A DNA stretch of 11,185 nt from Actinomycetes bacterium (GTDB taxonomy: Bacteria; Actinomycetota; Actinomycetes; Mycobacteriales; Mycobacteriaceae), in NCBI GenBank assembly GCA_022600695.1, contig JAHZJY010000293.1, positions 1 to 11,185 of the forward strand, in the 5' to 3' direction. Below the pieces are notes generated by a model. The model worked only from the letters and a program-made list of their open reading frames with translations, was not told where the DNA came from and ran no database searches. This document shows, in pieces, positions 1,323-7,021 of this stretch; the stretch's first letter is position 1, and every line of letters begins with the position of its first letter. Made by a program: the position numbers and the translations under genes.

Positions 1323-3368
1323 CTACTCGGGCGCCTTGACGAAACCGTTCGCCTGAGCAAGTTCCTCGCTGGCAAACCACACTTCAGGGATCGTGTTCTC
1401 GTAGAGCGCCGAATCCGGGGTGTAGTACATCCCCGAATGGGTGTTGCCCTTGATCGAGTAGCCTTCCGGCGCCTGATACGGGTCGGCCAGCGGTAGATGA
1501 ATCGCGGGTCGCCACGGCTCATCAGCGGCCTCGCCCCGATCCCAGGCATCCTCTGGAGCGACCGATTCGGTTTCGACGACTTCCACGATCTCATCCACCT
1601 CGACGACCCCAACGGCCTCGTCGACCACACCAACGCCATCGGACTCGTCGAGCGACCCGAACTCGGGGCCCCCGGAATCGGCGTCGTCCGCAGCATGACG
1701 ACGGCGTCGACCACCAGGCTCGTCGAGATTCAGCCGCCACAGTGATTCCGAGGCGGCGGCAGTACCGGCCGAATGCCGACCCTCTTCCGACCCGGCTGCG
1801 CCGAACCAGTCATCCGCCTCGGTGGTCGCCACCTGGAATTCGGCGACTTCGGCTTCGGACGGAACGCGAGTCGGAGCGGTATCGATGGCGTCTTCGTCGG
1901 AGTCGAAACCCACCTTCTCGTCAGCCGCGCCGACTGCGGGCGAGGACCAGAAATCGGAATCCCGCCCAGACGCCGTGCCGTACGACTCCGGCGAATAGGG
2001 GTTCGGCTCCGCAGCACCCTGATCGGGGCCGGATTTACGCAGCGCTCGCGCACCGAGCAGACCGAGTAGCAAAACCAAGGGGATGGCGATCAGCAACCAC
2101 CACCAGCCCCATCCGCCCTTCTCGGCGGTCTCGCCGGACGCCGGGGCGGCCGGGGTTTGCGCAACCGCTTCAGGCATTTCCAGCCCGGACAGCGACGCCC
2201 CCAGTTCGGCCGGCTTGGTGCTGAACTCCTCCGTGGCCTCGTTCCACGAGATCTCACCACCGCTGAACGTCTGAGTGACGGTGTCGCCCTTTACGGTCGG
2301 ATCACCGGTCGGCACCCCGACGTCACCGGTGGCGCCGCCGAGCTCTTGCCAGGCGGCGTTGACCGCGCCGCGAACAATGATCGCCCCGGTGTCGGGAGTC
2401 CAGAAGATGACCGGGTTGTCGGGCGCACTGAAGGCGCTCACCCGGCTGTTGGGCACACCGCCATCAGCCTCCGGAGCGATCGGGTAGCCGAGATCTCCGC
2501 CGGCCCCGCCCACCGACTCGTATTTGGACAGGATCGCGCCCGTCACGGCGTATGCGCCGGTCTCCGGGGAGTAGAAGATCTTTCCCCCGGCGTACCCTTG
2601 CGCGGCCCCGTTGTCACCGATCACCGATTGCTCACCCTGCGGCGCCCCCAGAGGGCCGCCCAAGCCGCCGCTGGCCCGCCACGCGAGGTTGATCAACGTG
2701 GTGGCATCCAGGGGAACCTCGAGGCCGACCAAGCCGTCAGCGAGGCCGGGCGGATCGGTGGTGAAGGTGTTGGTGGCCCGATTCCAGGACAACTCGCCAC
2801 CGGTGAACCGCTGACTGACCAGGTCGCCGTCGTACCGCTCGTCCTCGACCGGTACACCGAGCGCCCCGGCGGAGCCACCGAGGTTGTCCCAGGCGACATT
2901 GATGGCGCCGCGAACCGCCCAGGCTCCGGTTTCCGGTGTCCAGAAGATCGCGGGCTTATCGCTACCGTTGAAGGTGCTGACCCGACTGTCCGGGCCGACC
3001 AGGCCGGTGACCACATTGATATTGGGGAATCCGAGATCGCTGTCGGCGGGACCGCCGAGCGACTCGTATTTGTCCAGGATGGGCCCGTACATCAGATGTG
3101 CGCCGGCATCCGGTTCGAAGAAGATCTTGCCGTCGGTGAACTTCTGGCCGTATCCACCACCGACCTGGTAGACCTCACCTTCCTTACTGCCGACCGCCGA
3201 CCCGGCGCCCCCGGCGGCGCTCCAGGCCTGGTTGATGGCATCGGCGGCATCGCCCTCCGGTGTCGCGATCGCCGTCGGGACCACCAACGCCGCCGAGGCG
3301 ACCGTGGCGATAGCTCCCAGTGTCAGGCGCCCAATGGTCCGGTTCAGCCGTTTACCTACCCGCGTCAT
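1323..3368 (-). CDS. LGFP-repeat single-pass membrane protein with C-terminal sunset-like module (Rv2721c homologue)
   Basis: A 681-residue envelope protein of unproven function. Start: ATG at 3368 preceded by GGGAG with eight bases spacing. Seen: basic N terminus and signal-like helix (15-36, TLGAIATVASAALVVPTAIA); six LGFP-type repeats, marked by AVGS (58), DLGFP (111), ALGVP (169), PLGAP (239), DLGYP (292) and DVGVP (349); a Trp-rich transmembrane helix (419-440); basic stop-transfer RALRK; then a long acidic, low-complexity tail (about 480-620) with an RRRR patch at 554-557; and a compact end (about 629-679) with GYSIKGN, MYYTP and PEVWFASEELAQANGF. LGFP repeats in corynebacteria and mycobacteria are thought to bind the cell wall. 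The end resembles the actinobacterial sunset domain. Predicted topology is repeats outside, tail inside. The two halves of the repeat region (about 42-218 and 223-399) are an internal duplication. M. tuberculosis Rv2721c has about the same length and plan. Confidence 0.9.
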   Translation of the reverse strand: MTRVGKRLNRTIGRLTLGAIATVASAALVVPTAIATPEGDAADAINQAWSAAGGAGSAVGSKEGEVYQVGGGYGQKFTDGKIFFEPDAGAHLMYGPILDKYESLGGPADSDLGFPNINVVTGLVGPDSRVSTFNGSDKPAIFWTPETGAWAVRGAINVAWDNLGGSAGALGVPVEDERYDGDLVSQRFTGGELSWNRATNTFTTDPPGLADGLVGLEVPLDATTLINLAWRASGGLGGPLGAPQGEQSVIGDNGAAQGYAGGKIFYSPETGAYAVTGAILSKYESVGGAGGDLGYPIAPEADGGVPNSRVSAFSAPDNPVIFWTPDTGAIIVRGAVNAAWQELGGATGDVGVPTGDPTVKGDTVTQTFSGGEISWNEATEEFSTKPAELGASLSGLEMPEAVAQTPAAPASGETAEKGGWGWWWLLIAIPLVLLLGLLGARALRKSGPDQGAAEPNPYSPESYGTASGRDSDFWSSPAVGAADEKVGFDSDEDAIDTAPTRVPSEAEVAEFQVATTEADDWFGAAGSEEGRHSAGTAAASESLWRLNLDEPGGRRRRHAADDADSGGPEFGSLDESDGVGVVDEAVGVVEVDEIVEVVETESVAPEDAWDRGEAADEPWRPAIHLPLADPYQAPEGYSIKGNTHSGMYYTPDSALYENTIPEVWFASEELAQANGFVKAPE

Positions 3369-3541: not shown

Positions 3542-4702
3542 TCAGACCCCGAGGCTGCGCCCGATAATCTCCTTCATGATCTCGGTGGTGCCACCGTAAA
3601 TTGTCTGCACGCGGGCGTCGAGGAATGCCCGGGCAACGTTGTATTCGCGCATATAGCCGTACCCTCCGTGCAACTGCAGACACCGATCTGTCAGCCGGAC
3701 CTGCGCCTCGGTGGTCCACCACTTGGCCATCGCGGCCTGATCGACGGTGAGTTCGTCCTCGAGCAGTAGCTTGATGAATTCGTCGACCATGATGCGGACC
3801 GCGGTGGTCTCGGTAGCCAATTCGGCGAGCAGGAACCGGCTGTTCTGGAATGAGCCGATCGGCTTGCCGAATGCCTTGCGTTCCTTGGTGTATTGAATGG
3901 TTTCCTCGAGCACCGCCTCCATGGCCGCGGCGGCCATAATGGCAATGGAGAGTCGCTCCTGGGGCAGATTCTCCATGAGGTAGATGAACCCCATCCCCTC
4001 CTCGCCGATCAGATTCTCGACGGGAACCCGCACGTCGGTGAACGACAACTCGGCAGTGTCCTGAGCATCCAGGCCCACCTTGTCGAGATGCCGGCCGCGT
4101 TCGAAGCCCGGCATGCCGCGTTCGACACCGAGCAGGGAGAAGCCCTGGGCCCCCTTCTCCGGATTGGTCTGCGCCACCACGATCACCAGGTCGGCGTTGA
4201 TGCCGTTGGTGATGAACGTCTTCGAGCCGTTGAGGATGTAGTGATCACCATCCCTGACCGCGCGGGACTTGATGCCCTGCAGATCACTGCCGGTGCCCGG
4301 TTCGGTCATCGCGATTGCGGTGATCATCTCGCCGGTGCAGAACTGCGGCAGCCACCGTTGCTTCTGCTCCTCGTTGGTCTGGTGCAGCAGATAGGGCGCT
4401 ACCACATCGTTGTGCAGGGAAAATCCCAGCCCGCTGTAGCGAGCGGCAACGGTCTCCTCGACGACGATGGTGTTGTACCGGAAGTCGGGGTTGCCTCCGC
4501 CGCCGTACTCCTCCGGTACCGCCATGCCGAGAAACCCCTGCTTGCCCGCCTCGAGCCACACCCCGCGGTCGACGATCTTCTCCTTCTCCCACTGATCGTG
4601 GTACGGCGCCACGTGCTTATCGAGAAAAGCCCGGAAGGACTCCCGGAACAAGTTGTGTTCCGGCTCGAATATGGTGCGGGTGTATTTGACGGCGTTGCCC
4701 AT
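3542..4702 (-). CDS. fadE20: FadE20-type acyl-CoA dehydrogenase
   Basis: A 386-residue FAD enzyme that oxidises acyl-CoA to trans-2-enoyl-CoA and passes electrons to electron-transfer flavoprotein in beta-oxidation. Length equals M. tuberculosis FadE20, to which it is closely similar. Seen: N-terminal helical domain, FAD/substrate motif AMTEPGTGSD (131-140), FITNG (163-167), helix with ERKAFGKPIG (274-283), LQLHGGYGYMREY (342-354) and YGGTTEIMKEIIGR (369-382). The Tyr-Glu-Gly-Thr glutamate of medium- and short-chain enzymes is Gly here. The base should instead be Glu249 in LPQERL, as in long-chain and isovaleryl-CoA dehydrogenases. The ATG at 4702 follows GGAGG by eight bases and gives the family N terminus. 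A GTG at 4753 would add 17 unrelated residues and would overlap the operator and promoter. It has its own promoter with a TetR-type operator. The true substrate is unknown. Confidence 0.95.
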   Translation of the reverse strand: MGNAVKYTRTIFEPEHNLFRESFRAFLDKHVAPYHDQWEKEKIVDRGVWLEAGKQGFLGMAVPEEYGGGGNPDFRYNTIVVEETVAARYSGLGFSLHNDVVAPYLLHQTNEEQKQRWLPQFCTGEMITAIAMTEPGTGSDLQGIKSRAVRDGDHYILNGSKTFITNGINADLVIVVAQTNPEKGAQGFSLLGVERGMPGFERGRHLDKVGLDAQDTAELSFTDVRVPVENLIGEEGMGFIYLMENLPQERLSIAIMAAAAMEAVLEETIQYTKERKAFGKPIGSFQNSRFLLAELATETTAVRIMVDEFIKLLLEDELTVDQAAMAKWWTTEAQVRLTDRCLQLHGGYGYMREYNVARAFLDARVQTIYGGTTEIMKEIIGRSLGV

Positions 4703-4741
4703 GGCGGTGTCCTCCGGAGATGCTGCGCTGAATCTCTTTCG

Positions 4742-4767
4742 AGAATAGACCAACCGGATGGTTGGTC
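4742..4767 (-). promoter_or_regulatory. fadE20 promoter with palindromic TetR-type operator
   Basis: On the minus strand, -10 TATTCT is at 4747-4742. Immediately upstream is a perfect palindrome, GACCAACC-N4-GGTTGGTC, at 4748-4767, filling the -10/-35 spacer. A weak -35 (GTGACC, with a 17-base spacer) overlaps its outer edge. The 8-bp arms with a four-base centre are typical of TetR-family operators, which commonly control mycobacterial acyl-CoA dehydrogenase genes. No regulator gene is in the window. The leader would be about 30-35 bases, ending in GGAGG. Confidence 0.65.
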
Positions 4768-4777
4768 ACCCTCACGG

Positions 4778-5461
4778 TCAACCGATGCTCCAGCCTCCGT
4801 CGATCGGAACGACAGCACCGAAGAGATAGGACGCTTCATCTGATGCCAACCACCGGACCAGCGCAGCGGCCTCGACGCCGGTGCCGAGACGGCGGGCAGG
4901 AACGATATCGGCGATCTCGGCTCGAAACGTCGGATCGGCCACGACCTCGGGAGGGAAATACGACGGATTCTCGATGAAGTTGGGCGCGACACCGTTGACC
5001 CGCACACCGTGCCTGGCGACTTCGGACCCGACACTGCGGACCAGGTTCATCTGGGCCGCGCGGGCCGCTTCGTAACCGGCGATCGGGTGCGACGATGTGC
5101 GCAGCACCGTGGCCGACGAGGGGATGACCACTGCGCCTGAACCCGCGCTAATCATCGGCGGCAGACAGCGCTCCAGCAGCCAGAACAAGCGGTGGACCAG
5201 GCGATCGAAGATTGCCGACACCAGATCGGGGTCATGGGCGGTAATAGGACGGACGGCGATCGGAACGTCAAGATTCGCAATGAGAACGTCGAATGGCCCC
5301 CGGCGTTCGACCAGCTCCGCCACCTCTGCCGCGGTACGGAGCGGATCGATGGCCGCCGTCACCTCGTCACCATCTGACCGAAAGCGTTCCACGCACGCCG
5401 GTCCGAGGAACGCGTCGGCGTCGGTCACGAGAACCCGTCGGGGTGAATGCTCAGCAGCCAT
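4778..5461 (-). CDS. halohydrin dehalogenase-like protein of the SDR fold
   Basis: A 227-residue Rossmann protein whose motifs differ from oxidoreductases. The TGxxxGxG cofactor loop is replaced by T13-x4-F18-x-G20 (VTDADAFLG), the halide-site loop signature of halohydrin dehalogenases, and the YxxxK pair by Y130-x3-R134 (GYEAAR). Ser116 (PSSAT) would complete a Ser-Tyr-Arg triad; it is 13 residues before Tyr130, one more than the usual S-x12-Y-x3-R. APNFIENPSYFPPE (159-172) matches the halide-pocket GPNYL...YF.P segment I recall from HheC, and LASDEASYLFGAVVPIDGGW recalls HheB. Such enzymes interconvert vicinal haloalcohols and epoxides without NAD(P). The ATG at 5461 follows AGGAGG by 13 bases, a long gap, but no better in-frame start is seen. 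It lies between hflX (75 bases) and the fadE20 operator (10 bases). I recall no such gene here in M. tuberculosis. It could instead be a cofactor-free SDR with another role. Confidence 0.72.
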   Translation of the reverse strand: MAAEHSPRRVLVTDADAFLGPACVERFRSDGDEVTAAIDPLRTAAEVAELVERRGPFDVLIANLDVPIAVRPITAHDPDLVSAIFDRLVHRLFWLLERCLPPMISAGSGAVVIPSSATVLRTSSHPIAGYEAARAAQMNLVRSVGSEVARHGVRVNGVAPNFIENPSYFPPEVVADPTFRAEIADIVPARRLGTGVEAAALVRWLASDEASYLFGAVVPIDGGWSIG

Positions 5462-5536
5462 AGCGTGTCTGCAACCTCCTCATCGGCCTGGAGCCAGGAG
5501 TTACCGGTGGTTCTCGGACGCCCGGCACTGGCGGCA

Positions 5537-6955
5537 CTACGTGGTGGTAAAGACGCCCACGGTTGCGGCCAGGGCCGCGGGCACCCTGGCTTTGACCCGG
5601 GTGCCGGCCTCGGTGTGTTCGGTGGCGTCGACCCGCCCGTCATCGTGCAGCCGCGCGACCAGATCACCCCGCGAATAGGGAATGGTCACGTCGACCGCGA
5701 CCTCGCGGGGCTCCACCAGTTCGCCCAGCCGACTGCGCAGCCGATCCAGACCGTCACCGGTGCGGGCCGAGACGAACACCGCGCCGGGCAGGGCGCCGCG
5801 CAACTCAGCCAGTGTCAGCCCATTGGCGGCATCGATTTTGTTGACCACCAGCAGTTCCGGGGCCGGCGGGGCGTGGTGGTCGGCCTGGACTTCACGAATC
5901 ACGTGGTGCACCGCCCCGACCTGAGCCAACGGGTTGACGTCGGAGCCATCGACCACGTGAAGGATCAGTTCGGCGTCGATGACCTCCTCAAGAGTCGAGC
6001 GGAAGGCCTCGACTAGCTGGGTCGGGAGATGCCGGACGAACCCGACGGTGTCGGTGAACACCACCGGCCGCGCATCGTCGAACTGCCCCCGGCGGGTCGT
6101 GGGTTCGAGCGTGGCGAACAGCGCGTTCTGCACCAGGACACCGGCCCCGGTCAGCGCATTGAGGAGGCTGGATTTACCGGCGTTGGTGTAGCCGACGATC
6201 GCGATGGACGGCACGTCGCTGTGTAACCGCCGACTGCGCTGAGTGTCGCGGACCTGCTTCATGTCCTTTATCTCGCGGCGCAGCCTGGACATCCGCTCCC
6301 GGATTCGGCGACGATCCGTCTCGATCTTGGTCTCGCCGGGGCCACGGGTGCCCACACCGCCGCCACTGCCACCGGCTCTACCGCCGGCCTGCCGGGACAT
6401 CGACTCACCCCAGCCGCGCAGTCGCGGCAGCATGTATTGCATCTGGGCCAACTCCACCTGCGCCTTACCCTCCCGACTGGTGGCGTGCTGGGCGAAAATG
6501 TCCAGGATCAGCGCGGTGCGGTCGACGACCTTGACCTTGACCACCTTCTCCAGAGCGTTCAGTTGGGCGGGGCTCAGTTCGCCGTCACAGATGACCGTGT
6601 CTGCGCCGGTCGCGATGACGATCTGGCGTAATTCGATCGCCTTGCCGGATCCGATATAGGTAGCCGGGTCCGGTTTGTCGCGGCGTTGGATGATGCCCTC
6701 AAGAACCTCCGACCCGGCGGTCTCGGCCAGTGCAGCGAGTTCGGCCAGGCTGGCATCCGCATCGGCGGCGCTGCCCTCGGTCCATACCCCGACAAGCACC
6801 ACGCGCTCAAGCCGGAGTTGCCGGTACTCGACCTCAGAGACGTCGGCGAGTTCCGTGGACAACCCAGCGACGCGGCGCAGCGCGGCGCGGTCTTCGAGCG
6901 CGAGTTCGCCCAGGCTGGGCTCAACGCCGGGGGCGCGGCTATCAGGATCGGTCAT
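5537..6955 (-). CDS. hflX: HflX, ribosome-associated GTPase
   Basis: A 472-residue translational GTPase that binds the 50S subunit and splits stalled or hibernating ribosomes. In mycobacteria HflX is linked to macrolide tolerance. Seen: N-terminal HflX domain (about 20-190; GVWTEGSA, RRDKPDPATYIGSGK), a glycine-rich loop (191-209, GGRAGGSGGGVGTRGPGETK), helical linker with many Arg and Lys, then the G domain: Walker A GYTNAGKS (255-262), TLEPTTRR switch I, DTVGF (302-306), NKID (372-375), SARTG (396-400), and a C-terminal ferredoxin-like part. All nucleotide-binding motifs are intact. The ATG at 6955 (MTDPDSRAP) has AGGA six bases upstream. A GTG at 6976 would add seven residues and is possible. 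The gene follows dapF after 66 bases, probably in the same transcript. Confidence 0.97.
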   Translation of the reverse strand: MTDPDSRAPGVEPSLGELALEDRAALRRVAGLSTELADVSEVEYRQLRLERVVLVGVWTEGSAADADASLAELAALAETAGSEVLEGIIQRRDKPDPATYIGSGKAIELRQIVIATGADTVICDGELSPAQLNALEKVVKVKVVDRTALILDIFAQHATSREGKAQVELAQMQYMLPRLRGWGESMSRQAGGRAGGSGGGVGTRGPGETKIETDRRRIRERMSRLRREIKDMKQVRDTQRSRRLHSDVPSIAIVGYTNAGKSSLLNALTGAGVLVQNALFATLEPTTRRGQFDDARPVVFTDTVGFVRHLPTQLVEAFRSTLEEVIDAELILHVVDGSDVNPLAQVGAVHHVIREVQADHHAPPAPELLVVNKIDAANGLTLAELRGALPGAVFVSARTGDGLDRLRSRLGELVEPREVAVDVTIPYSRGDLVARLHDDGRVDATEHTEAGTRVKARVPAALAATVGVFTTT

Positions 6956-7021
6956 GGCAGATCCTGATGGTGTCACGCGGCCGGGCGGTCGCGCATCCCG
7001 AATGACGTACCCGGACGACGA

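Follow-up and report, generated by a model that had tools for sequence, protein, structure and literature searches.

The window, an 11,185-nucleotide stretch from a Mycobacteriaceae genome (Actinomycetes bacterium, GCA_022600695.1, contig JAHZJY010000293.1), encodes on its minus strand a short protein that, judged from its sequence and a predicted structure, is with a probability of roughly 80% a cofactor-independent halohydrin dehalogenase (HHDH)-like lyase, one of a distinct actinobacterial branch that stands beside the B and D types. The spacing between the catalytic serine and tyrosine appears to be its most informative feature and a fixed character of the whole branch. All 13 full-length branch rows, window included, read S-x13-Y-x3-R and none reads S-x12-Y-x3-R, the spacing that the published HHDH search signature demands (PMC4989007, section 5; PMC11976700, introduction). 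Since the signature requires x12, pattern-based mining would miss the branch proteins.

Catalytic motifs and the missing cofactor site

The open reading frame (ORF) starts with ATG, has 227 codons and is preceded by AGGAGG 13 bases upstream. Motif 1 (T13-D-A-D-A-F18-L-G20) has the form T-x4-F-x-G, which in HHDHs makes up the nucleophile pocket and replaces the glycine-rich loop of short-chain dehydrogenases/reductases (SDRs), as set out in the same two sections. Motif 1 in the form T-x4-F/Y-x-G and the Ser-Tyr-Arg triad (S116, Y130 and R134 in the window protein) are each present in 13/13 branch rows. In 22 SDR rows, by comparison, Tyr-x3-Lys is universal, T-x4-F/Y-x-G is absent from the first 40 residues and the glycine-rich pattern occurs in 20; in L002 and L089 the glycine-rich loop begins at residue 43. 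MabA (PDB 1uzn), another classical SDR, lies outside these rows. Because the SDRs and the branch divide so cleanly on both motifs, the combination seems to exceed chance.

The protein lacks every dinucleotide-binding motif sought, the glycine-rich loop, NNAG and PG all being absent. From motif 1 to the NNAG position it counts 45 residues, versus 57-75 in the 16 SDR rows measured. Like that of HheB and HheD, the cofactor half is reduced in length, typically by 25-30 residues relative to SDRs. The putative halide-site loop (A159-P-N-F-I-E-N-P-S-Y-F-P-P171, containing NPSYFPP) is nearly invariant: A-P-N-F-I-E-N-P-S-Y is found in all 13 rows and F-P-P in 12 (Y-P-P in L041). S-A-T at residues 116-118 is likewise shared by 12 of the 13, with S-A-V in L049.

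HheB, HheC, HheD2 and HheD8 permit the x12 spacing only, while 6a41, L039 and L075 can be read as either x12 or x13 because their serines adjoin each other. Pairwise alignments with 8xxb, 7b73 and 4zd6 place a one-residue gap opposite loop 122-129, in which Pro126 is kept in 13/13 branch rows and His125 in 12 (Asn in L052). The 13 rows include L046, although its C-terminal end diverges from the other members, and leave out a fourteenth member, L051, which lacks the first half with the serine. L051 (1-878) holds the second half of the gene only, some 0.5 kb from a tRNA-Val. Given that S-x12-Y-x3-R is required and S-x13 is found throughout, we regard the protein as one that probably works like an HHDH within a variant lineage outside the published signature, rather than as a signature member by the letter. 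Searches of open-licence PMC papers brought up neither an S-x13 halohydrin dehalogenase nor any mention of the branch.

Table 1. Features of the window and of related loci.
Feature	Position	Strand	Basis or remark
Halohydrin dehalogenase-like gene, 227 aa	4778..5461	-	ORF, motif table, PDB sequence search, tree, AF2 model, fold search
Motif 1, residues 13-20, TDADAFLG (T-x4-F-x-G)	5402..5425	-	Sequence; motif table; definition from PMC4989007 and PMC11976700
Residues 62-65, ANLD where SDRs have NNAG	5267..5278	-	Strand bearing ANLD begins 45 residues past motif 1
Catalytic triad segment, S116-x13-Y130-x3-R134	5060..5116	-	Motif table
Residues 122-129, TSSHPIAG, loop preceding catalytic Tyr	5075..5098	-	One residue more than aligned B/D-type enzymes
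Residues 159-171, APNFIENPSYFPP, putative halide-site loop, SDR PG replaced by PN	4949..4987	-	Sequence comparison
hflX, upstream neighbour	5537..6976	-	TIGR03156, 432.8 bits (cut-off 216.75)
fadE20-like acyl-CoA dehydrogenase, downstream neighbour	3542..4702	-	Relatives align from ATG at 4702
Palindrome GACCAACCGGATGGTTGGTC, operator-like site before fadE20	4748..4767	.	Kept in relatives without the insertion
TATTCTC between palindrome and fadE20	4741..4747	-	TATCCTC or TATTCTC in L053-L057
TetR/Rieske neighbourhoods of related genes	L182 16253-19501; L041 951-3924; L042 6185-8666		L041 also has an ATC_hydrolase-family protein

Structural relatives and phylogeny

The best sequence matches in the PDB are all halohydrin dehalogenases (8xxb, 3.1e-42; 7b73, 1.2e-38; 4zd6, 2.1e-38; 5b12, 2.6e-38), followed by 6a41, titled 'dehalogenase', at 1.1e-24 and the first SDR at 1.7e-22. 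An AF2 model with a pLDDT of 96.2 has HheD8, HheD2 and HheB as its nearest folds, corresponding by title to 8xxb (an HheD8 mutant with chloride), 7b73 and 4zd6. As to a possible open anion pocket at the nicotinamide position, the confident model is closest to HHDH structures, one of them chloride-bearing.

HheD8 (8xxb, a triple mutant) and HheD2 align with the model at query TM-scores of 0.91-0.93 and share T-x4-F-x-G, Ser-Tyr-Arg, the shortened cofactor half and an N-P-T-Y-F-P loop that resembles NPSYFPP. At 35-40% identity they differ in having S-x12, A-Q-N-F in place of A-P-N-F, and S-A-A or S-A-S rather than S-A-T at the catalytic serine. The B-type HheB (36-37% identity) has Tyr in motif 1, an A-Q-H-W loop and S-x12. 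The C-type HheC (PDB 1pwx), compared over residues 34-243 only, agrees in Ser-Tyr-Arg, in the P-N of the halide loop and in S-A-T, but has S-x12 and falls in a different part of the tree.

The tree comprises 47 rows (13 branch members, 10 other HHDH-like proteins, two G-like proteins and 22 SDRs hand-picked from 46), contains no E or F types, is drawn midpoint-rooted and includes HheC as a partial row of odd letter make-up. The branch of 13 is supported at 100/100. It groups with the B/D types at 99/92 and with the A/C-like rows at 97/87, and the 22 SDRs separate at 100/97. The branch stands beside the B/D rows, whose own grouping reaches only 89/69. The two G-like rows end up with the SDRs on one side of the midpoint-drawn tree, away from the other HHDHs, and HHDHs taken together are therefore not a single group here. 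L081 (G698) and L092 (G1250) are G-like HHDHs, and L081 has Ala in place of the motif 1 Thr. The window's species and the four other mycobacterial members may have acquired the gene separately: the tree sets the window outside the other 12 branch members (96/85), but a topology that unites all five mycobacterial rows is not rejected by the AU test (p 0.185).

The initial annotation had proposed an HHDH-like protein rather than a cofactor-dependent SDR, pointing to T-x4-F-x-G in place of the glycine-rich loop, Tyr-x3-Arg for Tyr-x3-Lys and 13 rather than 12 residues between Ser116 and Tyr130, and had suggested a phylogeny with SDR outgroups. The motif table, PDB search, tree and fold search bear out this proposal, and the odd spacing turns out to be real. 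It had further likened an APNF...YFPP segment to the halide pocket of HheC. The segment exists and its P-N is that of HheC, but overall it is nearer to HheD8 and HheD2 (AQNFVENPTYFPPE / AQNFVDNPTYFPEE) than to HheC (GPNYLHSEDSPYFYP).

Proposed reaction

By analogy with the HheC mechanism (PMC4989007, section 4), the enzyme would most likely interconvert vicinal haloalcohols and epoxides without a cofactor, using Ser116, Tyr130 and Arg134. Ser116 would hold the substrate hydroxyl, and Tyr130, its pKa lowered by Arg134, would take the hydroxyl proton. The resulting alkoxide would displace the vicinal halide and close the epoxide, the halide leaving into a pocket that motif 1 and the 159-171 loop form at the place where SDRs have the nicotinamide. 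In the reverse direction small anions would open epoxides. With its extra residue the loop that leads up to Tyr130 is longer, which probably gives the substrate pocket another shape.

Distribution of the branch

The branch appears to be small, rare and actinobacterial. Within the genus, 65 of 396 genomes (this and the following counts include the window's own genome) give matches at 1e-20, but identity reaches 60% in only four (the window genome, G182, G209 and G257), and the other matches listed lie at 29-40%. Draws from the family (1/301 at 1e-28) and the class (1/394 at 1e-40) returned the window genome only; G182, G209 and G257 went unmatched there, so they were not among the genomes drawn. 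Across the phylum, four of 396 genomes match at 1e-28. Besides the window genome, G698 (60%) is a branch member; G818 (39%) and G920 (37%, one stop) fall outside it. G698 is the sole branch member in its class, where 4/247 genomes match at 1e-35.

Two exact peptide patterns searched in genome_contigs (84,980 species) yielded 53 stretches and 12 branch loci, a lower bound because both patterns are narrow. Four loci are from the Mycobacterium/Mycolicibacterium metagenome-assembled genomes (MAGs) HKST-UBA35, HKST-UBA37, HKST-UBA39 and HK-STAS-ACTI-10; the other eight come from three Nocardioides, Isoptericola sediminis, an Ilumatobacter, two Acidimicrobiales and one Acidimicrobiaceae MAG. Carriers not titled as MAGs are Nocardioides bruguierae BSK12Z-4, Nocardioides sp. 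GY 10113 and Isoptericola sediminis JC619. In IMG/VR, 83 stretches match two patterns and none encodes a relative. Plasmid records at E <= 1e-20 number two, at 37.0% and 35.6% identity.

Neighbourhoods and the natural substrate

The branch loci, with flanks of 1.5 to 8 kb that are often shorter on one side, have no neighbourhood in common within the flanks examined. In three Acidimicrobiia loci (L038/L182, L041 and L042) the gene has a TetR regulator and the alpha subunit of a Rieske oxygenase encoded close by. The TetR assignment rests on Pfam in L182 and on similarity to the L182 protein in L041 and L042; the Rieske assignment rests on Pfam in L042, on NCBIfam matches below cut-off in L041 and on a reading of the sequence in L182. 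Between TetR and the HHDH-like gene, L182 also encodes a 346-aa protein (16941-17981) that matches nothing in Pfam or NCBIfam at 1e-3.

Outside the branch, two plasmid HHDH-like genes lie directly behind an epoxide hydrolase gene (L095 3805-5678; L096 2739-4636), the L096 set being flanked by two IS1634 family transposase genes. In L039 (13-3264) a B/D-like HHDH gene sits between a P450 and a haloalkane dehalogenase (NF002043 above cut-off), a cluster that plausibly forms a haloalkane-haloalcohol-epoxide set. The window genome has one EHN epoxide hydrolase elsewhere, next to and divergent from genes for a Pyr_redox_2 reductase and a P450 (L183 4726-8842). G698 likewise has an EHN hydrolase, but some 13 kb separate it from the HHDH-like gene, too great a distance to support a link.

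Several observations weigh against the HHDH assignment. In neither the window nor 17 related loci was an epoxide hydrolase or haloalkane dehalogenase found, save L039's own. By the letter, the protein fails the S-x12-Y-x3-R signature. A first AF2 model, from five rows, was poor (pLDDT 70.9), with weak spots that include the new loop and the halide loop, and the alignment for the second model was filled out with 33 viral SDRs. In the open-licence PMC literature searched, no report of an assay of a branch member was found.

The protein could instead be a cofactor-free SDR relative with a non-halohydrin natural substrate, a lyase or an epoxide-opening enzyme using another anion, for which dehalogenation is a side activity. 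The two proposals overlap, since both allow dehalogenation in the test tube. The lack of a common neighbourhood, the TetR and Rieske genes and the longer loop before the catalytic Tyr are in keeping with such a role, and a passage of a 2016 review (PMC4989007) states that other physiological functions of HHDHs cannot be excluded. However, the triad and motif 1 are kept in every branch row, and crude pairwise dN/dS among four mycobacterial members is low (0.11-0.18, six pairs). We consider a non-halohydrin substrate possible but rather unlikely.

Insertion between hflX and fadE20

The HHDH-like gene lies between hflX and an acyl-CoA dehydrogenase gene (3542-4702) that we take to be fadE20. Among the other ORFs of the window are presumably lexA, dapF and miaA, so named by reading only; another (1323-3368) encodes 681 aa and has a 'sunset' domain (NF051437 above cut-off) at its C-terminal end and, by reading only, LGFP-like repeats. 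We compared 16 fadE20-like loci. In six (L053-L058) fadE20 comes after hflX at a distance of no more than about 200 bases. L062 has some 600 bases between the two, and L064 an 88-residue hflX match roughly 1.2 kb off, at the edge of the locus; in eight, three of them at 58-60% identity, hflX is not found within 1.5 kb of the fadE20-like gene. The two genes are adjacent in three relatives that carry the HHDH-like gene elsewhere (G209, G182 and G257); HKST-UBA39, the fourth such carrier, was outside this comparison.

Set against four empty sites (L053-L056), the window has extra DNA from about the last hflX codons to just before a perfect palindrome (4748-4767) that, on reading, appears to be of the type bound by TetR regulators. 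In all five of L053-L057 fadE20 is preceded by the palindrome's core, ACCAACC-N4-GGTTGGT, and by TATCCTC or TATTCTC; the full 20-mer GACCAACCATCCGGTTGGTC is found in three of these, and L058 has a degenerate form. With up to two mismatches the core occurs once in the window (0.04 expected) and at four places in the genome, one perfect and three weaker copies elsewhere. TATTCTC may serve as a -10 element. A sigma-70 consensus scan of 4600-5700, confined to that promoter type, found no site. Because the extra DNA ends before a palindrome that is conserved in the empty sites, the gain seems to have added little more than the gene, leaving fadE20 its own upstream site. We conclude that the insertion is most probably real and, as the initial annotation had proposed, a lineage-specific gain.

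Lateral gain is the probable origin of the gene. A tRNA search of the window found none. Among the other branch loci, L045, L047 and L049 each have a tyrosine integrase no more than about 1.5 kb from the gene, and L043 has an rve-type transposase next to it.

From its place beside the acyl-CoA dehydrogenase, the initial annotation had also suggested that the gene might be linked to haloalcohol or epoxide catabolism. An operon with fadE20, serving a step in acyl-CoA or haloalcohol catabolism, would suit the shared strand and the 75 bases from the HHDH stop to the fadE20 ATG. However, the operator-like palindrome and the -10-like box lie between the two genes, the core is kept in 5/5 close relatives without the gene there, and the branch gene is beside fadE20 or hflX in 0/13 loci outside the window, within the flanks examined. 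We reject the link because of the intervening site and the empty sites, and hold an operon very unlikely.

Very unlikely, too, is an assembly chimera that brought in a gene foreign to the place. The arrangement is known from a single draft genome (401 contigs, 85.82% complete) and found in no other, and the gene has the lowest GC3 (0.724) and, marginally, the lowest codon fit (-1.117; next -1.101) of the nine window genes measured. Both of its sides nevertheless run straight into intact sequence, hflX on one and the fadE20 operator-like site on the other, and the branch is also present in other genomes of the genus.

Implications for the family

An ordinary NAD(P)-dependent SDR with drifted motifs, suggested by adh_short_C2/adh_short matches above the Pfam gathering scores, and by SDR/FabG-like NCBIfam models (none of the 25 shown, of 165, up to its cut-off), is rejected as scarcely credible on the motifs (a triad Arg where SDRs have Lys, and neither a glycine-rich loop nor NNAG), the shortened cofactor half and the tree, with the fold, too, closest to HHDHs. 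PHROGs yielded one FabG-like family.

For the HHDH-like lyase that we favour, the evidence is evenly balanced on whether the branch is a new HHDH subtype, found only in Actinobacteria in our sampling and laterally spread, whose fixed one-residue insertion ahead of the catalytic Tyr gives it a pocket and substrate range unlike those of types A-G and which, perhaps along with others, mining with exact S-x12-Y-x3-R has overlooked. Three papers describe the family as mined from databases with two fixed motifs (PMC4989007, PMC11976700, PMC10099379). HHDHs are prized for asymmetric epoxide chemistry. Because the branch keeps the catalytic residues and yet fails the second motif in 13/13 rows, relaxing that motif to S-x12-13 may reveal further enzymes. 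The effect of loop length on substrate range is directly testable, since sequenced strains not titled as MAGs carry the branch gene.
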